In this document: positions 13,318 to 45,244 of the stretch, piece by piece
Layout of the letters: the number at the start of each line of letters is the position of its first letter
How positions within the stretch are numbered: the first letter of the stretch is position 1
Virus record (IMG/VR): IMGVR_UViG_3300017917_002374
Span: 248,001 to 312,000 of that record
Source: a virus
DNA length: 64,000 nucleotides
Strand: one strand, 5' to 3'
Translations under genes and position numbers: made by a program
Notes under the pieces: model-generated
The model's database searches: none
What the model saw: only the letters and a program-made list of their open reading frames with translations
What the model was told of the DNA's origin: nothing

Positions 13318-14723
13318 TAGTTATCTGCCTTTGGTGTTAGTGCCTTGCTCAAGCTCACACGTTCGGTCACCACATTGCCATTGGCATTGGTCCATGTGGT
13401 TGCGTTGTTTACAAAACCGCTTCGTTGAGTCTTGTTATCTGCGGCACCTGGTGTAAGGTTGGTTCTCACGCTGTCTTCAATTTTAACCCACTTGCTGCCA
13501 TTGTATCTAAAAAGTCTATTAGGCACAAAGTCTAACCTTAAAAAATAATCGCCTGATTTTGCATTGGCAGGGAATGCGATCCCCATGCTGATGTCAATTC
13601 CATTTGGAGCAGTACCGTCACCGGTCATGTAACCTTGTACTTTAGAATCAGGTGCAGCATTTCCGCTTGAACTGTTAAGAACTATACTCTTGCGCAGAGT
13701 TATTATTTCGCCGCTGGCAATAGTGATGTTACTGCTGAGTATGATTCCAGAATTGCCAATGATTCCGGTGACAGTTATACCAGCATTGGCAAGAATATTT
13801 GCAGAGCTAACCGTAGCGCCAACAATAGCTGCGCGAGCATTACCAACCAAGATTCTATTAGAATTGATTCTCGTACTGGATGCGATTAAATTGATAATGC
13901 TTGCACCGGACGCATCAATGTTTCCGGTGGCAACATTCTGTCCACTAGGTGCAGTCAGTTGTCCAGTAACCCCTCTAGTGACCACATATAAATTGGCATT
14001 ATTATACCCACTCTTAGGCAATTCAATTTCTGCCTGCGCAAGGATATTTTCGTTAATATCAAGATATTTTTGATAGGTACTGACCACATCACCAATGCTG
14101 GTAGCGTTGGCATTGGCAGTAAATGGATCGCTGTCGGCGGCAATTTTGTCCAGTATGTCTTTGTATTCCTGGCTGTCTACCAACGGTTGTAGTTTAACAC
14201 GCCAAAGGTGTGGATACCAAGTTGGTGAGAACCCTTCTGCTGCCCACGATGCATCAGTTACCACATAGTAGCGTTTGATTGCAAATGGCACACTTTGATC
14301 CAGTGCATGATAATCTTTAAGATGCATGAGCTCTAGTACATCACCTGCAACGATCTTTCGCCCTACAGTTTCTACCATGTCATTCAAGTGGAAGGTCATA
14401 AACTGAGTGCCAGCAGCTAAGAATATACCAAACTGACTTAGATCAAAATCCTGATCCTGCTTTTGATAAATGCCTCGCAGATTGTAGATATCTGGATCGT
14501 ATTTGCGATCACGATTTTCTAAAAACAGTAGATCTTGAATGTTTAACTCGCTCTGATTAGCATATTCAGGTTTGGTAGCATCTGTACCAGCGCCGTTTGC
14601 TGGCCCAAGATACTTGTGCAAATGAATGCCGGTACCGCCCACAGTGAACATTTCGCTGATTCTGCGATCCAGGAACTGGTAATCGTTACCTTTATTTTCA
14701 CGCCATAGGCTCAAACGTGGCAT
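13317..14723 (-). CDS. 14: Neck protein, gp14-like (468 aa)
   Basis: The start at MPRLSLWRENKG is preferred over a longer in-frame start 19 codons upstream, because it has a taaggg ribosome site and a GCTAAATA late motif in front. The N-terminal ~200 residues include IQDLLFLENRDRKYD, FGIFLAAGTQFMTFHLN and GDVLELMHLKDYHAL, which match the layout of T4 gp14 (neck, head-tail joining). After about residue 215 comes a beta-rich domain with repeated NI.ASGASIINLI-like strands and MTGDGTAPNG...YFLRLDFVPNRLFRYNGSKWVKI, a FRYNGSKW motif also used in sheath and fibres. T4 gp14 is 256 aa, so the extension is large and decorative. Followed by gp15 with a 1-nt overlap. Confidence 0.7.
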   Translation of the reverse strand: MPRLSLWRENKGNDYQFLDRRISEMFTVGGTGIHLHKYLGPANGAGTDATKPEYANQSELNIQDLLFLENRDRKYDPDIYNLRGIYQKQDQDFDLSQFGIFLAAGTQFMTFHLNDMVETVGRKIVAGDVLELMHLKDYHALDQSVPFAIKRYYVVTDASWAAEGFSPTWYPHLWRVKLQPLVDSQEYKDILDKIAADSDPFTANANATSIGDVVSTYQKYLDINENILAQAEIELPKSGYNNANLYVVTRGVTGQLTAPSGQNVATGNIDASGASIINLIASSTRINSNRILVGNARAAIVGATVSSANILANAGITVTGIIGNSGIILSSNITIASGEIITLRKSIVLNSSSGNAAPDSKVQGYMTGDGTAPNGIDISMGIAFPANAKSGDYFLRLDFVPNRLFRYNGSKWVKIEDSVRTNLTPGAADNKTQRSGFVNNATTWTNANGNVVTERVSLSKALTPKADN

Positions 14724-14742
14724 TTTTAAACCCTTATTATTA

Positions 14743-14750
14743 TATTTAGC
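14743..14750 (-). promoter_or_regulatory. Late promoter for gp14-gp15-Nudix, GCTAAATA
   Basis: On the minus strand GCTAAATA ends 19 nt before the gp14 ATG, with a taaggg ribosome site between. Confidence 0.6.
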
Positions 14751-14763
14751 TAGGGCACCCAGG

Positions 14764-14792
14764 TTGACAACATAGCCCAATTGTTTTATAAT
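14764..14792 (+). promoter_or_regulatory. Consensus sigma70 promoter, TTGACA-17-TATAAT
   Basis: TTGACA at 14764-14769 and TATAAT at 14787-14792 are both exact and spaced by 17 nt. It reads towards the 404-aa gene, with expected start near 14799 and a taggag ribosome site at about 14809-14814. It lies over the 5' end of the divergent gp14 unit. Confidence 0.85.
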
Positions 14793-14821
14793 TAACTGTT
14801 ACAATAACTTAGGAGCAAAGC

Positions 14822-16036
14822 ATGGCTACCAAAGCTGTTGCAAAAAAAGCAAATGCACCTGTTGCAAAAAAAGCAAGTGTGCCCGCTGCAAAAAAGAGCA
14901 GCGTCCGCCGCAAGCATTTACCGGACGAAAAGTACACCGGCAGCGAGCCGCAGTGGGATACAGAACTAGCACTCAAAATGACAGATGAGGAGTTTGATCA
15001 TCATCTGCGACGCAGTTTTTATTTTTACAACTATCATTATGCAGTTAAAGATCTCAAGCCCGAATTTGTTAAATGGCTGCAAGAACAAAAACATTTTGAA
15101 ATCAGCAAAGCAGATCTCAGCAAGATCATAAAAAGTCGTTGGGTGCCCATGACAGCTTGTAGTCTGGTCATGGCCCATGGCATGGGCATGCCACTGCGCG
15201 GTCGCACTCTTGAATATCTCAAAAACAGTGTACAGGAAGTGTGCCTGAAGTACGATTACTATAAAGAAGGTGACGACGAGCAGCCTGAGGTTGTAGTGCC
15301 CACAGCACCGTCCAAAGTGCCTACTATTCAAGATCGTTTGAACGAACGCACTAGCGAACTGTTAGGCGAGCTTGAAGGACACTATGATGAAGTATGCGAG
15401 GGTAAAACCACGTTTGATCATTACAAGTTTTTGGTTTCCAACAATGTGGTACAAGGGCAGTTGATCAAATACGAAACCTTGTACATGACAAGAAAGGTTG
15501 AACTGGATGCTGCCTACAATGGAGCAGATGCTGATCTAGTGGAAGCCTACAAACACTATAAAGCAGCTGATTGGAAGCGAATTTTTGCCTGGATAGACGG
15601 TCTGCTTACTGCAATTGAACAGTACCGTGGAGTTAAAAAAGCCAGTAAAAAAGCCAGAGTTAAGAAAGCTCCTAGCAAAGAAAAGCTGGTGAGCAAACTC
15701 AAGTATTGTAAAGATTTTCCTCAACTGAAAGTGGTAAGTATCAACCCTGCAGAAATAGTTGGAGCACAAGAGCTTTGGGTGTACAACACCAAGACTCGCA
15801 AGCTGGGCAAATACATAGCCAGCAACAGCGATGGCTTTGCTGTTAAAGGTACCACAATTGAAAACTTTACAGACAAGAGTGTGAGCAAGACTCTGCGCAA
15901 GCCTGAGCAACAACTGTTGGAATTTACCAAAAGTACCAAGGTACAACTGCGTAAATTTTTAGAAAGCATCAAAGCCACAGAAACCTTGCTTAACGGACGT
16001 ATTAACACTGACACTGTGCTACTGCGAGTACTGTAA
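14822..16036 (+). CDS. Lys-rich conserved phage protein behind a strong early promoter (404 aa)
   Basis: The N-terminal ~32 residues are made of Ala/Lys repeats (VAKKANAPVAKKASVPAAKK), like the tails of histone H1-type or nucleoid proteins, followed by VRRKHLPDEKY. The central part is alpha-helical (FDHHLRRSFYFYNYHYAVKDLKPEFVKWLQ). A second basic patch, KKASKKARVKKAPSKEKL, is near residue 275, and a beta segment ELWVYNTKTRKLGKYIA is near residue 320. I recall similar proteins in marine T4-like phages without a known role. Nucleic-acid binding is inferred from the basic tails. Unlike its neighbours it has a perfect sigma70 promoter, which suggests transcription soon after infection. The terminator at 16041 ends the unit. 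Confidence 0.7.
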   Translation: MATKAVAKKANAPVAKKASVPAAKKSSVRRKHLPDEKYTGSEPQWDTELALKMTDEEFDHHLRRSFYFYNYHYAVKDLKPEFVKWLQEQKHFEISKADLSKIIKSRWVPMTACSLVMAHGMGMPLRGRTLEYLKNSVQEVCLKYDYYKEGDDEQPEVVVPTAPSKVPTIQDRLNERTSELLGELEGHYDEVCEGKTTFDHYKFLVSNNVVQGQLIKYETLYMTRKVELDAAYNGADADLVEAYKHYKAADWKRIFAWIDGLLTAIEQYRGVKKASKKARVKKAPSKEKLVSKLKYCKDFPQLKVVSINPAEIVGAQELWVYNTKTRKLGKYIASNSDGFAVKGTTIENFTDKSVSKTLRKPEQQLLEFTKSTKVQLRKFLESIKATETLLNGRINTDTVLLRVL

Positions 16037-16040
16037 GTCC

Positions 16041-16076
16041 AAACCCCCGTTTGCATAAATACTGCAACGGGGGTTT
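16041..16076 (+). terminator. Terminator hairpin with a late promoter in its loop
   Basis: AAACCCCCGTTTGC (16041-16054) pairs with GCAACGGGGGTTT (16064-16076) with one bulged T. The loop is ATAAATACT. It lies 4 nt after the stop codon of the 404-aa gene, and the right arm ends in TTTCTT. Confidence 0.75.
16054..16061 (+). promoter_or_regulatory. 13: Late promoter CATAAATA inside the hairpin loop
   Basis: CATAAATA sits at the top of the terminator stem, 18 nt before the gp13 ATG (16080). A T4-like start about 6 nt downstream would give a leader of roughly a dozen nt that contains only the right arm of the hairpin. Confidence 0.65.
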
Positions 16077-16079
16077 CTT

Positions 16080-17213
16080 ATGGCCACATTAAAGCCAGGA
16101 CTGAATTCTAAACAACACTTGATCACTGACAGCTTGGGCACACCAGGTCCAATAGCCTACGATGAAACACAGTACGACAGCGTGGCCAAAAAACGCAAAG
16201 AAATAGAAGACTACGTGCGTTTTCGTTTGGGCGATGGCATGGTTGATGTTGAACTGGATCCAGATCATTATAGAGTAGCTATTGATAGAGCTCTGCTGCG
16301 CTATCGTCAACGTGCTGGAAATGGCGAAGAAGAAAGTTATGCGTTTCTAGAACTTTTACCAGAAACACAAGAATACATTCTGCCAGAAGAAGTCATGACT
16401 GTACGACAGATATTCCGTAGAGGCATTGGTAGTGTAACAGGAACCACAGCTAGCCAATTTGAACCGTTTGCGTCCGGGTACTTAAACACATACATGTTGG
16501 TGGCTGGACGTGTGGGTGGATTGCTCAGTTACGAACTGTTTAGCCAATACCAAGAACTGGCCATGCGCATGTTTGGCGGACACATGAATTTTACTTGGAA
16601 TCCAATGAGCAAAAAGCTCACACTGATTCGCAAGATTCCCGAAACAGGTCATGTGTACAAGCGAATAAGTACTCTTACTGCCAGTGGTACCACAGTTGGA
16701 AGCACAATCACTGTTACATTCTCTGATCCTTGGGAAGAAATTGTGGTTGGTGGAACTTTGGTTATTGCCAACTGTCCGGTTACCGGATACAACAATGCCT
16801 ATGAAGTTCTTACTGTGGACAATGACAGCAAGGTGTTTACTGTGGAGGCACTGAGCAATCTTGGTTCCACTGCGGTAACAGGCAGCAATCGTGATCGCAC
16901 CAGAGCCTACAGTCCACTTACTGATGATCCTGCCGAAACAGTTTTGTTGCATATCTATAATAAGAAACCAGACAGCATGCTGTTGAATGACAGTAGAATT
17001 TTTCCATGGCTACAAGACTACGCACTGGCAGTTGCTAAAGACATGTTGGGTCAGGCTCGCGAAAAGTTTGCTACCATAGCAGGCCCACAAGGTGGTACTC
17101 AGCTGAACGGCGGCGCATTAAAAACCGAGGCTAAAGCAGAAATGGAAGCTCTTGAAGAAGAACTCAAGCGTTTTTACGATGGCAGTATGCCTTACACTTG
17201 GGTAATTGGATAA
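16080..17213 (+). CDS. 13: Neck protein, gp13-like (377 aa)
   Basis: The N-terminal ~195 residues (KKRKEIEDYVRFRLGDGMVDVELDPDHY, ALLRYRQRAGNG.EESY, LPEEVMTVRQIFRRGIG, QYQELAMRMFGGHMNFTWNP) and the C-terminus (DYALAVAKDMLGQAREKFATIAGPQGGTQLNG) match gp13 of T4-like phages, the neck protein that with gp14 seals the filled head and accepts the tail. Between them, at about residues 195-275, is an inserted beta module (SGTTVGSTITVTF...GYNNAYEVLTV...FTVEAL) that also occurs in the 2063-aa adhesin. T4 gp13 is 309 aa, so the extra length is about this module. No ribosome site is obvious; the leader would be very short. Confidence 0.85.
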   Translation: MATLKPGLNSKQHLITDSLGTPGPIAYDETQYDSVAKKRKEIEDYVRFRLGDGMVDVELDPDHYRVAIDRALLRYRQRAGNGEEESYAFLELLPETQEYILPEEVMTVRQIFRRGIGSVTGTTASQFEPFASGYLNTYMLVAGRVGGLLSYELFSQYQELAMRMFGGHMNFTWNPMSKKLTLIRKIPETGHVYKRISTLTASGTTVGSTITVTFSDPWEEIVVGGTLVIANCPVTGYNNAYEVLTVDNDSKVFTVEALSNLGSTAVTGSNRDRTRAYSPLTDDPAETVLLHIYNKKPDSMLLNDSRIFPWLQDYALAVAKDMLGQAREKFATIAGPQGGTQLNGGALKTEAKAEMEALEEELKRFYDGSMPYTWVIG

Positions 17214-17593
17214 TGAAGATAAGAGAAATTATTACTGAAGTACGAGCTGGTGACATACCTGACAATTTTAAACAGTCAAGTGCTGGCTTGCATACATTTA
17301 GTGATGCAGAAAGAGCCAATACAGACTACACTCACTACAGATTGGGATTGGCTTTGGCATGTGCAGATGGTAAAGGGCAGCTGATTGACATGGATCCAAA
17401 AACCTTTTATGGTAAGAAACACACTGCACATCCTTATACCAAAGAAGAAGAAGACATGCTCAAACAAAGCTACAAACTGGTTGGAGCAAACTATAAAGAC
17501 CTTAACAAAGGTAATTTGAATAGTATGGAAATAAGCGATACTAATAAAGTAAGCCCAACAGCCAAACCTAAGAAAAACAAATACGGTGTTTGA
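17213..17593 (+). CDS. Conserved small protein with capsid-targeting-like N-terminus (126 aa)
   Basis: The ATG at 17213 overlaps the gp13 stop (TAATG) and gives MKIREIITEVRAGD, which is better than a start five codons upstream inside gp13. The first residues resemble the T4 capsid-targeting sequence (MKTYQEFIAEA type), where gp21 protease cuts after an (I/L)xE; here IITE-V. The rest (FSDAERANTDYTHYRLGLALA, DPKTFYGKKHTAHPYTKEEEDMLKQSYKLVGANYKDLN) belongs to a family I recall from marine T4-like phages with no assigned function. Translationally coupled to gp13, so a head or neck role is likely. An internal or packaged protein is a plausible alternative. Confidence 0.6.
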   Translation: MKIREIITEVRAGDIPDNFKQSSAGLHTFSDAERANTDYTHYRLGLALACADGKGQLIDMDPKTFYGKKHTAHPYTKEEEDMLKQSYKLVGANYKDLNKGNLNSMEISDTNKVSPTAKPKKNKYGV

Positions 17594-17615
17594 CCACCGA
17601 AGCAGTTTAGTTTAT

Positions 17616-17639
17616 AATGCCCCTAAGGGGGCATTTTTT
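17616..17639 (+). terminator. Terminator hairpin touching the next start codon
   Basis: AATGCCCC, loop TAAG, GGGGCATT, then a run of T up to 17639. The ATG of the dNMP kinase begins at 17640, so the kinase mRNA start and this structure overlap. It ends the gp13 unit or attenuates read-through into the kinase. Confidence 0.8.
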
Positions 17640-18332
17640 ATGATCATAGGCATATCAGGATTTATTGGATCAGGCAAAGACACCGCAGCAAACTACTTGG
17701 TGGGCTTTCATGGATTTAGACGCGACAGTTTTGCAGGTGCGCTCAAGGATGCAGTTGCTACTGTGTTTGGGTGGGACAGAGAACTACTAGAAGGGCTTAC
17801 ACCTGAGAGCCGGGCCTGGCGAGAGCAAGTGGACACATGGTGGAGCAAACGGTTGGACATGCCGCATTTAACTCCTCGTTGGGTGTTACAACATTGGGGT
17901 ACTGAAGTTTGTCGTCAAGGGTTTCATGATGATATTTGGATTGCTGCACTTGAAAATCGTCTACGGCAACGTACCGGAAACACTGTGATAACAGATGTAC
18001 GTTTTCCTAACGAAATTAAAGCTATTCGTCGTGCTGGGGGTACTCTTTGCTGGGTCAAACGCGGATCCTTGCCCGAGTGGTACGAAACTGCACTGCTAGA
18101 AAATACCACACCTCTGGACAAGCAGTGGCTTCTAGAAGATGCGCATCAACTGATGCCACAAAAGTATCCTCGGGTGCATGCCAGCGAGTGGGCTTGGGTG
18201 GGTACACAATTTGACTACGAAATTGACAATAATGGCTCAGTTGAACAACTGTATGATCAACTTAAAAGTTTGGTTAATCCTCAGCGGCCCGCCACGGTAA
18301 ACGCTCTAGATATAATACTTTCTGGCAGTTAA
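17640..18332 (+). CDS. 1: Deoxynucleoside monophosphate kinase, gp1-like (230 aa)
   Basis: The start at MIIGISGFIGSGKDT is chosen because the P-loop (GFIGSGKDT, residues 7-15) should be near the N-terminus; an in-frame start 18 codons upstream would run through the terminator hairpin. Downstream are RRDSFAGALKDAVATVFGW, PRWVLQHWGTEVCR and NTVITDVRFPNEIKAIRRAGG, all typical of T4 gp1-type dNMP kinases. These phosphorylate dGMP, dTMP and modified dCMP to diphosphates for phage DNA synthesis. T4 gp1 is 241 aa. The 3' end overlaps the convergent zinc-protein gene by 59 nt. No ribosome site is present in front of the ATG other than the hairpin itself. Confidence 0.85.
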   Translation: MIIGISGFIGSGKDTAANYLVGFHGFRRDSFAGALKDAVATVFGWDRELLEGLTPESRAWREQVDTWWSKRLDMPHLTPRWVLQHWGTEVCRQGFHDDIWIAALENRLRQRTGNTVITDVRFPNEIKAIRRAGGTLCWVKRGSLPEWYETALLENTTPLDKQWLLEDAHQLMPQKYPRVHASEWAWVGTQFDYEIDNNGSVEQLYDQLKSLVNPQRPATVNALDIILSGS

Positions 18333-18615
18333 GACACACTGTTCTTAGATTTACTCTATCTACATTTTTTAAATTACCGTCCACATGATAAACATGCAAC
18401 TGTTGATCAGGTAATTTAGCCACAAAGCCGCAATGATCGCATGCGGCTTTTTTTCTATATCCGGCACGATACCAAGCAGGTCGTTTTGCTGGTACTTTTT
18501 TACCCTTTCTAATACAAGTGTCACACCGACTTCGGAAATGTGTGATTCCTTCTGAAATATAGTTGATTGCAACAGGACGATCGTTGCAAGCAGGGCATAA
18601 ACTTCTAATAGACAT
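18274..18615 (-). CDS. Small four-CxxC zinc protein, HNH-like (113 aa)
   Basis: Four CxxC pairs (CPAC, CDTC, CDHC, CLNC) and the segment YHVDGNLKNVDRVNLRTVCLNC suggest two zinc sites, with an HNH-like H-x-DGN...N core between the last pairs. I recall this family as common in T4-like marine phages, unannotated. Nucleic-acid binding or a small HNH-type nickase are both possible; no decisive catalytic histidine set can be assigned. It is a single minus-strand gene between plus-strand late genes and has an exact TATAAATA just 4 nt before its ATG, so its mRNA may be leaderless. Confidence 0.65.
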   Translation of the reverse strand: MSIRSLCPACNDRPVAINYISEGITHFRSRCDTCIRKGKKVPAKRPAWYRAGYRKKAACDHCGFVAKLPDQQLHVYHVDGNLKNVDRVNLRTVCLNCQKVLYLERLPWRAAED

Positions 18616-18619
18616 ACGG

Positions 18620-18627
18620 TATTTATA
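18620..18627 (-). promoter_or_regulatory. Late promoter TATAAATA (minus)
   Basis: Exact octamer on the minus strand with only 4 nt (CCGT) between it and the ATG of the zinc protein. Confidence 0.7.
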
Positions 18628-18677
18628 TACTAAACCTTTGCAAAGGGCAGTCTAGCAGCCCAAAAATGTCAGTTCCA

Positions 18678-18685
18678 AATAAATA
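18678..18685 (+). promoter_or_regulatory. 18: Late promoter AATAAATA for gp18
   Basis: AATAAATA lies 33 nt before the sheath ATG (18719), with an AAAGGA ribosome site (about 18706-18711) between. Confidence 0.6.
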
Positions 18686-18718
18686 TCTATAACATGATTT
18701 TTGTCAAAGGAAAATAAC

Positions 18719-21700
18719 ATGGCAACTTTAGTTTCTCCAGGTCTTAGTGTAACAGTAACCGATGAAAGCCAATATGTACCAGGCGGTCCAGGAACCGTTC
18801 CGTTGGTAATTTTAGCAACTGCACAAGACAAAACTTCACCAAGTGGTGGCACCGCTACTGGCACCACAGCAGCCAGAGCAAATACTCTACAAGCATTTGG
18901 CAGTCAGCGCGAGCTGATCACAGCCATGGGATATCCCGTATTTAAAACTGCGGCTGGCAGTCCTGTACATGGCGACGAACAAAACGAATATGGATTGCAA
19001 GCAGCTTACAGTGCAATGGGCCTTGGTAACAGATGTTTTGTACTAAGAGCTGATATTGACCTCGATCAACTTACACCTACTGGAGTAAGACCAAAAGGCA
19101 ACGTTGATGATGGTTTCTACTGGTTTGATCTTACCACATCTGACTTTGGTATATTCCAGTGGAATGCATCAACACAGACTTTTACAAAACAAACAGTAAC
19201 CGTTCTAACTTCAACCGCAGACGTAAATTCTCCTGGCGGCGCCGGAGAACCATTTACTCCAAAAGACAGTGTGGGAGAAATTGGCAGTTATGCAGTAATC
19301 GCAGTAGACGACGACAATCCTCTATTTTATAAAAATGCAGACAATGCCTGGGTAGCTGTTGGATCAAAAGATTGGCAGAAGGCCTGGCCTACTGTGCAAA
19401 GTTCATATGCAACTTATGCCGGAAATGAAGTAGCAGCAGGTACTCAAGTTACTATTAATACTGTTACTGTAACAATCACAGCAGCAGGTGCGACAGCAAC
19501 AGGAACAGAAGTAGTAACTGCAATTAATGCGGCGTTCGCTGCCAACTACGGCGACGGTATCCGTGCTGAAATTGATACCAACGGAAGACTGATCATTCGC
19601 GCTACATCAGACGCAGCAAGCGATGGTAGCACAGCTGACGGTAAAGTGGTTATTGTTGACGATGCTGGTGCTGCTGACTTAGGATTAGATGGCGGTATTG
19701 AAGCGTTTGCTCCAATTCTTGATTTTGGAAAATACACAGAGGTACCAACCTTTGCAGCGTCTGAAGCCACTCCAGCACCAACTGGTAGTATTTGGGTAAA
19801 AACTTCTGTAGTAGGCAGCGGTGCTAACTGGGTAGTAAAAAGATTCAACGCATCAACTGGTGCATTTGCTACCATGGCAGCTCCGATCTACGAAGACAAA
19901 GCATCGGCCATCTATGGACTAGATCCATTAGGCGGTGGATTTAATCTAGCGGTAGGCACACTGTATGTTGACTATTCAACACTAACTGATTTTCCTGGTA
20001 CATTTAAAATTTGGCGTCGTTACAAGAGTGGCGTAACCAAGGTTACTGGATCAGTACCTGCTAATGCAAATCCATTCACCATTGGGCATACTTTTAAACT
20101 GGCTGTGACACAGCCTGAGCAAAGTACCATTGATGAATACACATTTACTATTGCTGAAACCAGTGTAGACGGTTTTGTAAAACTAATACTTGGTAAAGCC
20201 ATTCCAAATGTGTTTGCATCAAAAGAAAGTTCAGGTGCAATCAGTATCACGCACAAAGCAGGCGGAGATATCTATCTAGTAGATACTACCGCAGGGGTTG
20301 GTAATCCATTGACCAACGCTGGTTTCACCAGCAGCACCAGTGGTATTCTTGTAGAAACAGTTGGAACATATTCAGGATCTTTACTGGCCACAAACTGGTC
20401 TGTACTAGACTACACTTACAGCACTGAAGAGCCTTATGTGGCCCCTGCTGATGGTACACTATGGTACTATGGTAGTGCTGTAGAAGCAGATGTGTTAATT
20501 TGCAGTACCACTGGCTGGAAGGGATATCGCACAGTGTCAAGTGACGCTCGCGGTTATAATCTAACTCTTACAGATCCAAATGGTCCAATTTTTTCTGCTT
20601 CAAGACCAACACTACAAAGCGACGAGACAGCTCTTGTGGCAGGCGACTTGTGGGTTGACACCAGCGATTTAGAAAACTATCCTGTGATCTACAGATACAA
20701 CGGCAGCAAGTGGGTAGCCATAGATAACACAGATACCATTACTCAAAACGGTATTCTATTCGCAGACGCACGTTGGGACGCAGATGTTGATGGCAGCGGT
20801 GACAGTATTGGTGGTATCGTTGATCCAATCAGTGGCGACCTGCCAGAGATAGCAACCATGCTGTTGAGCAACTACACTGACTTAGATTGCCCAGACTATC
20901 GTTTGTATCCACGTGGTACCATTCTATGGAACACACGTCGCAACGGATTCAACGTCAAACAATATGTAAGCCAAGCATTTACAGAAGACGCTTATCCAGA
21001 TGCAGATGCCAACAGCGGAAACAATCTGGTTGGAGAAATTCCTGACATCACAGCAACTTGGGTAACTGCTAGTGGCAACCAAGATGACGGAAGTCCTTAC
21101 ATGGGACACAAAGCTCAACGTCGTATGGTAGTCAAAGCACTACGTGCGGCAGTTGACAGCAACACACAGATACGTGAAGAACAGTTCACTTTCAATCTGA
21201 TTGCTTGCCCAGGATATCCAGAGCTGTTGTCAAACATGACAGCATTAAACAATGATCGTGCAAACACTGCATTTATCATTGGCGACACTCCATTGGATCT
21301 GGTTCCAGACACAATTGAGTTAACCAACTGGAGCAATAATGTTGCTACCACTGCTGACATCTATACAGGCCTGTTCTATCCGGCAGGGTTAACAAATGAC
21401 CTAGATGGCAACGAAGTTGTGGTACCTGCAAGTCACATGGCATTAAGAGCTTTGATTCGTAACGATCAAATTGCTTACCAGTGGTTTGCCCCAGCAGGCG
21501 CACGTCGTGGATTGATTGACAATGCCACAGCAGTAGGATATCTAGACTATACCACAGGATTGTTCACTAAGATTGGTGTACGTCAAAGTCTGCGTGACAC
21601 GCTGTACACTTTAAGAGTGAATCCTGTTGCAAACTTACCTGGTTTAGGACTGGCTATTTTTGGACAAAAGACTCGTAGTCCAATTGCACAAAGCACAGAC

Positions 21701-39900: not shown

Positions 39901-39978
<78 letters not shown>

Positions 39979-40023
39979 GATTTCTTAATAAGTTATTAAC
40001 TTATTAAATATGTAACAAGATTT

Positions 40024-40108
40024 GCGACTGTGGTGAAACAGGTATACACAGCAGACTTAAAATCTGCCGCTGCAAGGCGTGCCGGTTCGATTCCGGCCAG
40101 TCGCACCA
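40024..40108 (+). tRNA. tRNA-Leu (UAA)
   Basis: Acceptor GCGACTG pairs with CAGTCGC; anticodon arm CAGAC-TTAAAAT-CTG with UAA; class II variable arm (CCGCTGCAAGGCGTG region); T arm GCCGG-TTCGATT-CCGGC; encoded CCA. Confidence 0.9.
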
Positions 40109-40114
40109 AGATTT

Positions 40115-40191
40115 CTGACCATAGCTCAGTTGGATAGAGCAACAGCCTTCTAAGCTGTGGGTCGGGGGTTCGAATCCCTCTGGTCAGGCCA
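40115..40191 (+). tRNA. tRNA-Arg (UCU)
   Basis: Acceptor CTGACCA pairs with TGGTCAG; D arm GCTC...GAGC; anticodon arm ACAGC-CTTCTAA-GCTGT giving UCU; T arm GGGGG-TTCGAAT-CCCTC; encoded CCA. UCU reads AGA/AGG, which are heavily used in this phage. Confidence 0.9.
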
Positions 40192-40267
40192 ACAGATAAA
40201 TAAACTTATGAACAAGCTCTACACTACTGCACGAATACGTAACTATCACACTCAGTGATGGCGTCTT

Positions 40268-40357
40268 CCCACGGTAGCTCAAGGAGAGCAGGAGGCCTTA
40301 TAAGCCTTTCGTCCAGATAAGACCCAGGATGCGGTTCGATTCCGCACCGTGGGACCA
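40268..40357 (+). tRNA. Unusual tRNA, anticodon UAU, long variable region
   Basis: Acceptor CCCACGG with CCGTGGG, T arm TGCGG-TTCGATT-CCGCA and encoded CCA are perfect. The anticodon arm GAGGC-CTTATAA-GCCTT gives UAU (Ile, AUA). The D loop is very short (AAGGA between GCTC and GAGC), an extra base follows the D stem, and the variable region is about 21 nt, as in class II tRNAs. A UAU tRNA with a long variable arm is not expected, so identity and charging are uncertain. Confidence 0.7.
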
Positions 40358-40363
40358 ATTCAT

Positions 40364-40389
40364 AAAAAAAGCCCCTTTCGGGGCTTTTT
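40364..40389. terminator. Bidirectional terminator, tRNA cluster / autotransporter
   Basis: A-run, GCCCC, loop TTTC, GGGGC, T-run. The A and T flanks make it functional in both directions: it ends the tRNA transcript on + and the autotransporter transcript (stop at 40399) on -. Confidence 0.92.
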
Positions 40390-40398
40390 GTTTGGCGC

Positions 40399-42729
40399 TT
40401 AGAATCCTATTCTAAGCATCACACTGCCTGAGGTGCTTTGAATATCTTGACTGTGCAAATGCACAGCACCTAGAACAACAGACACCTTTTCAGAAAGTTG
40501 CTTGCCCACACCAACACGAGACACAGTGAAGTTGGTTGAAGTTTGTGCTACTTCTCCATAAACATTCATGGTACCAAATCTTCGGTCGTAACGTAAACCA
40601 TACTCGTGACTACGTGTGTTTTGATCCACTGCTGCATAGTTCATAGCAGTGATTGCACTACCAGATTCAGCAACTGCATCTCTGCGATTGTTCTCATGTC
40701 TAGCACCCACAAAAGGTCTAAAGCCCACTAGGTCTGGAGTGTACAGTCTAGCACTGAGCCAATAGTCGTTGCCGTTGGTTCTGCTGCTGTTTGAGTAGCC
40801 CAATGCTGGCAGGCTATGACCGGCTGTGAACACATTGTTGGCATAACCCAACTGTGAACTAACAATCCAGTTTCTAGCCACCCAGGTTGAGTTCAACGCA
40901 AAAATATCCTTGGTCAAACTGCCAGTGGCATCATTGCCGCCCATGTTACTATCAAAGCGACTCAAAGATAAACCTACCACTAGGTTTTCACGCACCAGTT
41001 TGTCTAATCCAAATCCATAACGTGAACTCATGATCAGATAGTTATCAAAACTGTAGTCTGCAGTTTTCTCACCAAACGCATAGAAAGAAACAGTTCTAGC
41101 TGAATCTAAATTGCCTTTGAAACTGAGATCTCCATTGATTATAGAATGTCTATTTAACAAGTTATCAGAACTGAGTAGATTGGCCAAACTGTTTGTTTGC
41201 GACAACACAGCATACTGATCAATTCTTGTGTAATAGCTTTGATCTTCACTGGTAGTAGAAACTGTGTTAAAAGTACTGGTAGTAGTGACCACTTGATTGC
41301 TGGTACTGGTAGTTGTTACCGGAGTACCATTGGTAGTGGTAGTTGTACCATCACTGTATGTGGTAACAGTTGTCGGAGTGGTTGTGGTTGTGGTTGTTAC
41401 AGGTGTGGTCTGAGTTATAACTCTGGTCACAGGAGTTGTGGTAACCACTGTGGTATTACGATTGATTTCAAGAGTTTTTTCAGTTTGTGCACCTCTACTG
41501 TCTGTGACAGTGGTCACACTGGTTGGTGTACCTGCTGTGTCTACAGTTGTACTGGTTGTGGTACCATAACTCACTGAAGTTGACACAATGTTTGCCCCGG
41601 GTGCAGTGCTGACCACAGTAGGAGTCATACTAGATACTGAACCTGGTGTACCAGGGTTGGCAATAGTGCCAGAGCCTGTTGCTACACTGGTTGTGGTGTT
41701 GTTACTGTCATAGTAGTAGGTAACTTCACCAATTTGCACACTGTCACAGGCCAGAGTGCCTAGTGCTGCTTGACAGGCTGCTACTGAACCATACTGATCA
41801 ATGGCCTTGATGCTTGGAAATGTGATAAAGTAATACACATAAGCGTTGGTATTGTTGATAGTGATCATGCTGGTTTGGGTATAACGACCACTAACGTTTT
41901 CCAATGTGGTACTTTGGTTGGCAGTGATTTCTGTCCAAGTCACACCGTCGTTTGATCCATACAGTGTAAACTTGGTAGGGTCACGTGGTACAAAGTCGTT
42001 GGCTGTGGTAAATTTAATACCGTCAATGACCTTGCCAGCATTTAGTGTGATAGTAAAACCAGCATTGGCACGATCAAAATTTAGATACTTGCTGCCACTG
42101 GTTCCATCCACTGCCTGCCCGGCACCTTCGCCTGCTGGACTGTTGTTGCTGGTTGGTGTGATATTGGCAATCATGCTTCCAGTAATTGCTGTGGGATTTG
42201 GTGTGCTGCTTCCTCCGCCGCCGCTGCTGGCTGTTTGTCCTGCTCCTAATGGAGTGGTGCTGGCCCAGGTGTATGAGCTGGCATCAGAACTGGACACACT
42301 GGTATCCATGTTGGTGAAACTGCCACTGGATCCGTAAGCATAGCCTGCACTGGTAGTGATCACTGTACCAAAGAATCCTGATCCAATGTAGAACAGAGCA
42401 TCTGGCCCAATTGCTTGTAGTGTTCCGGTGTTGTGAACCACTTGTGCAAGAGTACCATTTGCGTTGTACAATCCTAGACCGTATGTGCCTGGATTGGTGG
42501 TTGAGTTGAAAAATGCAAAATACTGTCCACTGCTGACCGTAGGATGTTGAAAATTCATATCGTATGGGGCAATGAAATTACTAGCATTCAGGGTGGTGCC
42601 AGACCAGTAATATTGAACGTCAAAAATTTGGTTAGTGCTGAAATGTCCGTCTGTGATATCTGCTTTAGCTGGAAGAATGGATAATAGAAAAACAGCAAGA
42701 GTCACAGCGACTCTGCTGAAGAATTTCAT
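40399..42729 (-). CDS. Autotransporter-like outer membrane protein with discoidin-like domain (776 aa)
   Basis: Residues 1-23 form a signal peptide (KFFSRVAVTLAVFLLSILPAKA-D). A passenger follows: an N-terminal beta domain, then about 195-310 an F5/8 type C (discoidin)-like domain (QAVDGTSGSKYLNFD, IDGIKFTTANDF, KFTLYGSNDGVTWTEI). About 400-500 is a Thr-rich linker. A helix (DQYAVLSQTNSLANLLSS) precedes a ~260-residue barrel of amphipathic strands (ENLVVGLSLSRFD, WIVSSQLGYANN, DYWLSARLYTP, HEYGLRYDRRF, MNVYGEVAQTS, KVSVVLGAVHL) ending in MLRIGF, the terminal Phe required for BAM insertion. So the product should be secreted by type V secretion and shown on the infected cell's surface. Strong ribosome site (AAAGGAG). 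Unexpected in a lytic phage; see findings. Confidence 0.85.
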   Translation of the reverse strand: MKFFSRVAVTLAVFLLSILPAKADITDGHFSTNQIFDVQYYWSGTTLNASNFIAPYDMNFQHPTVSSGQYFAFFNSTTNPGTYGLGLYNANGTLAQVVHNTGTLQAIGPDALFYIGSGFFGTVITTSAGYAYGSSGSFTNMDTSVSSSDASSYTWASTTPLGAGQTASSGGGGSSTPNPTAITGSMIANITPTSNNSPAGEGAGQAVDGTSGSKYLNFDRANAGFTITLNAGKVIDGIKFTTANDFVPRDPTKFTLYGSNDGVTWTEITANQSTTLENVSGRYTQTSMITINNTNAYVYYFITFPSIKAIDQYGSVAACQAALGTLACDSVQIGEVTYYYDSNNTTTSVATGSGTIANPGTPGSVSSMTPTVVSTAPGANIVSTSVSYGTTTSTTVDTAGTPTSVTTVTDSRGAQTEKTLEINRNTTVVTTTPVTRVITQTTPVTTTTTTTPTTVTTYSDGTTTTTNGTPVTTTSTSNQVVTTTSTFNTVSTTSEDQSYYTRIDQYAVLSQTNSLANLLSSDNLLNRHSIINGDLSFKGNLDSARTVSFYAFGEKTADYSFDNYLIMSSRYGFGLDKLVRENLVVGLSLSRFDSNMGGNDATGSLTKDIFALNSTWVARNWIVSSQLGYANNVFTAGHSLPALGYSNSSRTNGNDYWLSARLYTPDLVGFRPFVGARHENNRRDAVAESGSAITAMNYAAVDQNTRSHEYGLRYDRRFGTMNVYGEVAQTSTNFTVSRVGVGKQLSEKVSVVLGAVHLHSQDIQSTSGSVMLRIGF

Positions 42730-42875
42730 TTTGTAGAGCTCCTTTAAAAAATTAAGAACGGTAGTTGAAAAAGCAGAAGTAGATTGAATTGTTGTTCTTT
42801 TATATCTACAAGGATATTTAACCCAATAAAGTGTGTTATAATCTAGTGTTACAATAGCCAGGATAAGTACACTTT
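42730..42875. promoter_or_regulatory. Divergent regulatory region, autotransporter / DUF2452-like
   Basis: On the minus strand GTTAAATA (42822-42815) is a late-type motif about 85 nt before the autotransporter ATG, and TTGGGT-16-TATAAA (42826-42800) is a weak sigma70-like pair. On + an exact TATAAT (42837-42842) lies 33 nt before the ATG at 42876, without a good -35. Confidence 0.4.
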
Positions 42876-43942: not shown

Positions 43943-44035
43943 GGAAACGTGGCTGAGTGGCCGAAGGCAGCGGTTTGCTAAACCGTCGATCAGCTTAAAA
44001 CTGGTCCGTGGGTTCGAATCCCACCGTTTCCGCCA
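43943..44035 (+). tRNA. tRNA-Ser (GCU)
   Basis: Acceptor GGAAACG with CGTTTCC, anticodon arm CGGTT-TGCTAAA-CCG with GCU, class II long variable arm, T arm GTGGG-TTCGAAT-CCCAC, encoded CCA. Reads AGC/AGU, which are the dominant Ser codons in the phage's fibre genes. Confidence 0.92.
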
Positions 44036-44041
44036 AACAAT

Positions 44042-44115
44042 TCCGGAGTAGTATAATGGCAGTGCGACGGTCTCCAAAACCGTTAGTGGGGGTTCGATTC
44101 CCTCCTCCGGAGCCA
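44042..44115 (+). tRNA. tRNA-Trp (CCA)
   Basis: Acceptor TCCGGAG with CTCCGGA, anticodon arm ACGGT-CTCCAAA-ACCGT with CCA, T arm GGGGG-TTCGATT-CCCTC, encoded CCA. Ends 6 nt before the next start codon. Confidence 0.9.
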
Positions 44116-44121
44116 GATCAA

Positions 44122-44523
44122 ATGAAAAAAATATTTGTAAACGGTACATTTGATATTGTACATCGCGGGCATGTTGAAATGCTTAACTATGCTCGTGGCC
44201 TAGGCGATTATCTATTGGTTGCAATTGACACAGACACTAGAGTACAGCAGCTCAAAGGCCCAACTCGTCCTGTTAACATGCTTGTAGATCGCATGTTTCT
44301 GTTAAACAATCTCAAGGCAGTGGATCGTGTGGTTAGTTTTGATTCTGACCAAGAGTTATCTAGCATAATTAAACAGTATGCACCGGACGTTATGGTCAAG
44401 GGCAGCGATTATATAGGACGAGACATCATAGGTGCAGAGCATTGTGCAGCTATTGAATTTTATCAACTGGTAAATGGATACTCAACAACTCAAAAAATAC
44501 AAGATATTGTTAATCGGCGATAA
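44122..44523 (+). CDS. HldE C-domain-like nucleotidyltransferase (133 aa)
   Basis: The start is set at MKKIFVNGTFD because the upstream part of the open frame is the tRNA-Trp. The cytidylyltransferase signature is complete: GTFDIVHRGH (HRGH at 14-17) and GYSTTQKIQDIV near the end. Together with the kinase that follows, it resembles the adenylyltransferase half of HldE (RfaE domain II), which makes ADP-heptose from heptose-1-phosphate and ATP for LPS inner core. A glycerol-phosphate type is an alternative. It follows the tRNA-Trp by 6 nt and overlaps the kinase by 50 nt. Confidence 0.8.
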   Translation: MKKIFVNGTFDIVHRGHVEMLNYARGLGDYLLVAIDTDTRVQQLKGPTRPVNMLVDRMFLLNNLKAVDRVVSFDSDQELSSIIKQYAPDVMVKGSDYIGRDIIGAEHCAAIEFYQLVNGYSTTQKIQDIVNRR

Positions 44524-45244
44524 TGGTGTTGATCAGTACCAATATGGTACTGTGAATCGTATCAGTCCCGAAGCGCCTGTGCCTGTGCTAGATCTTAGCC
44601 ACACAGTAACCAAGCCGGGCATGGCTGCAAATGTTAGAGAAAATCTCCTAGCTCTGGGTTGTGATGTAATCTTTGAACATGGTCTTAAAACCTGTATCAA
44701 AACTCGTGTGATTGATCTGCGCAGCAAACAACAGTTGATACGCATAGATCAAGATCAAGAATCCAAACCAGTAAAAATAAATCATGCAACTCTGGACCGT
44801 TATGACGCCATTGTGATCAGCGACTATGCCAAAGGATCAGTTGATTATGCTACAGTGCAGAACATACGCTATCATTACACAGGCCCTATTTTTGTGGATA
44901 CCAAGAAAACAGACATGGCCAAGTTCAGCGGTTGTATAATCAAGATCAATCAGTTAGAATACGATAGACTGGTTACTCGGCCGGACTCGCTTACAGACAT
45001 GATCGTCACGCAAGGCGATCGTGGTGCAGAATGGAATGGCCGTCTAATACCAGCAGTGCCGGTGGAAGTGGCAGATGTGTGCGGTGCAGGAGATACATTT
45101 TTAGCAGCTCTTGCATATGGATATCTTGAACACAAGGACATGGAGCTAGCCATCAAATTTGCCTTGCGGTCCAGTTCTGTAACTGTACAGCATGTGGGAG
45201 TGTATGCACCCACACTAGAAGAAATTAATCAGGAGAAATCATGA
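44474..45244 (+). CDS. HldE N-domain-like PfkB sugar kinase (256 aa)
   Basis: N-terminal KILLIGDNGVDQYQYGTVNRISPEAPVPVL and GMAANVRENLLALG are typical for the heptose-phosphate kinase domain of HldE (RfaE domain I). The PfkB active-site motif is at 204-209 (GAGDTF, with Asp207 as base). Here the kinase is shorter than the ~320 aa HldE domain and its gene follows the transferase, the reverse of the order in HldE. It would make heptose bisphosphate from heptose-7-phosphate. ATGA overlap with the next gene. Confidence 0.8.
   Translation: MDTQQLKKYKILLIGDNGVDQYQYGTVNRISPEAPVPVLDLSHTVTKPGMAANVRENLLALGCDVIFEHGLKTCIKTRVIDLRSKQQLIRIDQDQESKPVKINHATLDRYDAIVISDYAKGSVDYATVQNIRYHYTGPIFVDTKKTDMAKFSGCIIKINQLEYDRLVTRPDSLTDMIVTQGDRGAEWNGRLIPAVPVEVADVCGAGDTFLAALAYGYLEHKDMELAIKFALRSSSVTVQHVGVYAPTLEEINQEKS

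Follow-up and report, generated by a model that had tools for sequence, protein, structure and literature searches.

Introduction

Genes for curli secretion (the type VIII system, T8SS) have been published for pelagiphages and for the phage Melnitz (PMC7029224, PMC9599517, PMC9004378), and in the portions of these papers available to us the genes are ordered CsgF-CsgG-curlin-FecR-second curlin-cyclase. The roles proposed there are sibling capture, superinfection defence, nutrient import and a pinholin-like part in lysis timing or as a secretin, and the role of phage curli genes is an open question. Those same portions describe neither an adhesin head nor replacement by an autotransporter, and the accessible part of PMC9599517 contains no terms for an adhesin head. 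Phage curli and phage autotransporters are each known already, and some database entries name phage proteins as autotransporters. Nothing relevant came from searching the literature for autotransporters of cyanophages, or for phage curli in combination with discoidin or PA14 domains, and no report of exchange between autotransporters and curli was found, although subscription literature lay outside the search and an unseen report is possible.

The window analysed here is a stretch of 64,000 nucleotides, bases 248001 to 312000 of a 354,959-base virus record (IMGVR_UViG_3300017917_002374). One of its phage genes probably encodes a classical (type Va) autotransporter that serves as an adhesin on the surface of the infected cell. 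A preliminary reading made from the DNA letters alone (the sequence-only reading) recognized the autotransporter but not its connection with phage curli, and that connection matters more.

Architecture of the autotransporter gene

The gene lies opposite in orientation to its neighbours, between a cluster of four tRNA genes (39901-40357) and a DUF2452 gene. The sequence-only reading had placed the open reading frame exactly, and all the parts it had proposed, from the signal peptide through the F5/8C-like domain, the Thr-rich linker and the helix to a C-terminal barrel with Phe as its last residue, are confirmed by the sequence itself, PF00754, AlphaFold and PF03797. The features, in window coordinates, are as follows.

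42815-42820, minus strand: TAAATA late-promoter-like core, 91 nt upstream of the gene (motif scan)
42739-42745, minus strand: ribosome-binding site AAAGGAG, 9 bases before the ATG (read from the sequence)
40399-42729, minus strand: autotransporter open reading frame, 776 aa, ATG start (open reading frame list and sequence)
42658-42729, minus strand: Sec-type signal peptide, residues 1-24, MKFFSRVAVTLAVFLLSILPAKA/D (AKA/D) (read from the sequence)
42226-42657, minus strand: N domain, residues 25-168, beta-rich, no known family (alignment, 76 viral loci)
41725-42198, minus strand: F5/8 type C (CBM32-like) domain, residues 178-335 (PF00754, Foldseek, profile)
41230-41694, minus strand: Thr-rich linker or stalk, residues 346-500 (composition)
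41173-41217, minus strand: translocator helix, residues 505-519 (AlphaFold)
40402-41091, minus strand: 12-strand autotransporter beta-barrel, residues 547-776, last residue Phe (AlphaFold, Foldseek, profile, PF03797)
40366-40389, both strands: bidirectional intrinsic-terminator hairpin between the tRNA-Ile gene and the stop codon (direct folding)

This reading of the architecture of the 776-aa protein is very likely right. The signal peptide contains a helix at residues 2-16 in both AlphaFold models, and the complete relatives in the domain mapping have signal peptides as well. Thr accounts for 59 of the 155 linker residues, and the linker is modelled as long strands at moderate confidence.

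AlphaFold modelling of the full protein from a nine-sequence alignment gives the translocator helix at 505-519 followed by twelve strands over 547-775, with pLDDT mostly between 80 and 92; a 12-strand barrel is what the sequence-only reading had expected structure prediction to return. The best Foldseek match of the barrel in the PDB is NalP (1uyo/1uyn; E 2.7e-11, target TM 0.73-0.77), followed by EstA, AaaA, Hbp, EspP, AIDA-I and BrkA, and EstA is also found by sequence using the alignment profile (E 2.4e-5). The best BFVD matches are phage proteins named autotransporter beta-domain or outer-membrane barrel. A search with the autotransporter beta-domain model, the second check that had been suggested, is positive as well: PF03797 scores 43 bits against a cut-off of 26 in the genome-level search (E 6.5e-12) and falls on this gene alone within the 355-kb record, and it reaches 55 bits in the relative L015. 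Whole-protein scans of the window protein against Pfam, PHROG and NCBIfam gave no barrel match, perhaps owing to the Thr-rich composition, but this discrepancy is resolved by the structure, the alignment profile and the genome-level PF03797 search. The window protein ends in LRIGF, and the barrels of its relatives terminate in Phe or Trp, one with an extra trailing Asn. The barrel and preceding helix, the PF03797 match, the signal peptide, the N-terminal passenger and the terminal aromatic residue are the type Va features, and with every testable defining feature met the window protein is a member of this class, its surface exposure through BAM being inferred.

The head comprises the N domain and the F5/8C domain. 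PF00754 matches residues 191-296 above its cut-off (E 2e-8), a profile of the domain matches the F5/8C region of the GH92 mannosidase 7nsn (E 2e-29) as well as CBM32 modules, and Foldseek matches CBM32 structures. Both head domains are poorly modelled in the full-length prediction; a second AlphaFold run on residues 1-345 with 35 sequences resolves F5/8C and shows the N domain to be beta-rich without an assigned fold. The N domain was found only in viral contigs (76 loci); it has no sequence match among 84,980 bacterial and archaeal genomes and no sequence relative in the PDB. The genome-collection scan for bacterial relatives of the barrel was also empty, and is weak evidence of absence because only a single peptide pattern was used. 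Some F5/8C domains bind protein or lipid. Several barrel-type relatives lack F5/8C (for example L010, L012, L015 and L099), so sugar binding by F5/8C cannot be the sole function of the head.

Expression signals and selection

The remaining claims of the sequence-only reading concern expression. The ribosome site it had called strong is the AAAGGAG listed above, and its bidirectional terminator folds stably on both strands, with A- and T-tracts on both sides, energies of -16.8/-15.9 kcal/mol and z about -3.8 on each. Scans of the region for sigma-70 promoters and simple terminators found no more than in shuffles, and the 40366-40389 hairpin was missed there.

The upstream late-type motif also holds up. 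A TAAATA core lies 35-91 nt upstream of the gene in seven of eight relatives checked, and such cores are about 3-15 fold enriched upstream of genes in the window's phage, about 6-fold for the GTTAAATA form found at the autotransporter gene. The distance of 91 nt is long, and the form, with T before the core, is a less enriched subtype. The record as a whole clearly shows the late-promoter pattern of the T4 type, NTAAATA, placed in most cases 10-40 nt before the start codon. The gene is thus probably expressed late, although expression itself is inferred. Calling the phage T4-like is loose: its UvsX is closest to those of Rak2-like jumbo phages (Phosso, Atu_ph07, CBB and GAP32).

Over all 776 codons dN/dS against the relative L004 is 0.058 at a dS of 0.92, and each domain after the signal peptide has a value of 0.03-0.07. 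The gene is maintained under strong purifying selection.

Two adjacent window genes (44008-44523 and 44474-45244) encode a split HldE homologue (rfaE domains II and I; heptose-1-phosphate adenylyltransferase and heptose-7-phosphate kinase), with matches below the NCBIfam cut-offs. The listed start of the first overlaps tRNA-Trp, placing its real start further downstream. A small nucleotidyltransferase gene (L007:4021-4500, L022:4922-5398, L099:7208-7639) occurs near 8 of 14 barrel loci and none of 32 curlin loci. Heptosylation of the linker stays speculation: no Aah/TibC heptosyltransferase was found in the window's genome, which has two GT9 matches, and the window's own nucleotidyltransferase seems to belong to another subfamily than those next to barrel genes elsewhere.

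One head family on two anchors

The related loci recovered number 13 when the whole protein is the query, 77 for the barrel profile and 76 for the N domain. Homologues that are virion structural proteins would have refuted the autotransporter reading, and there are none among the roughly 150 related loci. Domain mapping shows that in related phages the N(+F5/8C) head is carried either on an autotransporter barrel or on curlin repeats; L016, for example, matches the CsgB/CsgA models. Some heads have no F5/8C and some barrels bear different passengers, which makes the protein modular. Comparison of L008:3656-5023 with window 41725-42729 suggests a finer level of exchange, as the N domains are 92% identical and the L008 F5/8C seems nearer to the L009 type, a pattern that recombination of heads inside the gene would give.

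The curlin-anchored heads sit in a cassette with the order CsgF (PF10614)-CsgG (PF03783, E 4e-47)-curlin-FecR-[head]-CHASE2-cyclase. Counting distinct proteins with enough flanking sequence, CsgG is nearby for all 31 curlin-anchored heads and for only 3 of 15 barrel-anchored ones (Fisher p 1e-8, indicative only since the rows are related). This is what the mechanism predicts, because export of curlin needs CsgG and an autotransporter does not. The N-domain tree requires at least four changes of anchor, at least two of them forced by well-supported branches, and in three phages (L107, L122/L006 and L105/L009) the curli slot, flanked by FecR and the cyclase, is filled by the barrel form.

The same slot in the cultured Pelagibacter phage HTVC008M holds gp018 (L184:5139-6464), filed as a hypothetical protein, which has a PA14 domain followed by curlin repeats. 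Of 34 scanned proteins that fill this slot or lie next to it at phage CsgG loci, several have F5/8C or PA14, and one has an autotransporter beta-domain. Three of the 34 match Amidoligase_2, perhaps the three proteins, each roughly 665-715 aa long and encoded between FecR and the cyclase (L194:9171-11162, L197:12659-14680 and L199:12930-15071), that match no head, barrel or curlin model.

Phage curli cassettes are common, being found in about 600 viral stretches (including L016:2539-9905, L108, L112, L145 and L158). They have a CHASE2-nucleotidyl cyclase gene downstream and, in several, heme oxygenase and ferredoxin-dependent bilin reductase genes just upstream. Elsewhere, in cyanophages and their kin (L002:3600-6792, L003:2946-6648, L038, L043, L050, L054 and L060), an autotransporter-barrel gene follows endolysin-type genes, a recurrent order that suggests expression at lysis in those phages; no endolysin adjoins the gene in the window.

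The window protein is not a member of the phage curli system, having no curlin repeats and no CsgG or CsgF alongside. Neither CsgG nor curlin is present in the window's 355-kb record or in the 367-kb phage of L013, while related records match the same queries. The genes that border the cassette or barrel gene in L009, L007 and L022, among them HSP20, ClpS, an exoribonuclease-like gene and a D-alanyl-D-alanine carboxypeptidase, are present at 14638-21001 of the window's genome with neither between them. They are the surviving flanks of the ancestral slot, whose contents this lineage has either lost or never had. The location beside the tRNA genes is common to L004, the closely related locus (91% identical).

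Discussion

The best reading of these data is that the autotransporter replaces the curli fibre as a scaffold. Display on the infected cell is likely even without localisation data: it follows from the anatomy, and the case is strengthened because one head swaps between a barrel and a curlin fibre tied to CsgG, structures that reach the surface by unrelated routes. On this basis the gene would be transcribed late in infection from the TAAATA promoter and its product exported through Sec; the barrel would be inserted by the host BAM complex, whose compatibility can only be assumed since the host is unknown, and the head would be threaded to the outside of the cell. The protein may then be retained at the surface without cleavage, as EstA is, with the F5/8C domain presumably binding a glycan, although its sugar-contact residues are unmapped and there are no binding data.

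What the displayed head is for can only be inferred. The foremost candidate, which we put forward tentatively and at somewhat less than even confidence, is that the infected cell, by sticking to particles or to its kin, comes to release progeny beside new hosts ('sibling capture'). Cultures of Melnitz, a phage with a curli cassette, are reported not to clump, which counts against adhesion (PMC9004378, in the part available).

Next, and unlikely though not to be set aside, is that the head masks a glycan receptor, either on the cell or on fragments of outer membrane left by lysis, so that rival phages are blocked by superinfection exclusion or progeny are not soaked up by re-adsorption. A CBM32-like head suits the binding of surface glycans, the split ADP-heptose genes of the window and the two GT9-family matches in the genome point to manipulation of surface sugars, and late expression suits the blocking of debris. 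Late expression is, however, late for exclusion, and the long Thr stalk and the exchange with a fibre fit a protein that reaches for other surfaces better than one that covers the cell's own.

It is improbable that the protein is a lysis accessory whose barrel destabilises the outer membrane with the head merely incidental. That proposal draws on the cyanophages DSL-LC03 and DSL-LC02 and related contigs, where the barrel gene comes directly after endolysin genes, and on the lysis-timing role proposed for phage CsgGF in the accessible part of PMC9004378. But the window gene has no such neighbour, and a head that is conserved (dN/dS about 0.05) and portable while its anchors swap is the opposite of what would be expected if it were incidental.

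Lectin-like domains do occur on phage virions. With a gene that is probably late, a decoration or tail accessory protein merely resembling an autotransporter might be imagined, but there is very little room for this given the signal peptide, the outer-membrane barrel with its terminal Phe, relatives that lie in secretion cassettes and not among structural genes, and the names of the best BFVD matches. Autotransporters as a class are bacterial in origin, yet a horizontally acquired adhesin without a current role in infection is scarcely credible at a dN/dS of 0.06 against a relative at dS 0.92, with a conserved late-type motif and no bacterial relative of head or barrel in the genome-collection scans (for the barrel, one peptide pattern).

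The adhesin reading of the window protein extends to a broader proposal, on which we regard the evidence as evenly poised: that one virus-specific head family is displayed interchangeably on infected cells by autotransporter barrels or phage curli amyloid, anchor and head recombining, and that the real purpose of phage curli is to present heads (N domain, F5/8C or PA14), with neither a pore nor lysis control as the aim. In the window's lineage, on this proposal, the ADP-heptose genes nearby might also serve to glycosylate the Thr-rich stalk, in the manner of AIDA-I-type autotransporters. It appears that viruses have two interchangeable ways of changing the surface of the cells they infect. That a head is exchanged between a fibre dependent on CsgG and a barrel independent of it is natural evidence that selection keeps the displayed head and not the pore. 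It also implies that phages use on the infected cell the autotransporter route, which is classical for bacterial adhesins. The phage curli question also becomes simply testable, by displaying the head on a laboratory strain and assaying binding, clumping and phage adsorption.

Comparison with known systems

With the type Va autotransporters of the EstA/NalP type (PF03797) the window protein has in common the signal peptide, N-terminal passenger, helix, 12-strand barrel and terminal Phe. It differs in being phage-encoded and single-copy, and in a passenger made of an unassigned domain, F5/8C and a Thr stalk where theirs is an esterase or beta-helix. The autotransporter-named phage proteins A0A6J5L9T3 (uncultured Caudovirales) and WJZ47857.1 (cyanophage DSL-LC03) have a homologous or structurally matching barrel, but the cyanophage proteins carry other passengers and their genes directly follow endolysins, unlike that of the window. 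Phage outer-membrane proteins of the Lom type, small barrels that change the infected or lysogenic cell, have no passenger and a different barrel. The CBM32/F5/8C modules of bacterial glycosidases (GH92 7nsn, CpGH89 and YeCBM32) share fold and sequence family with the window domain, which unlike them has no catalytic domain and is borne on a membrane barrel, or on curlin repeats in relatives. Finally, the T8SS of pelagiphages and Melnitz has been lost, or was never had, by the window's phage; the 'second curlin' in the cassette order of those phages (PMC7029224, PMC9599517, PMC9004378) corresponds to relatives of the window protein, which is filed here as working like the curli-borne adhesins of related phages.
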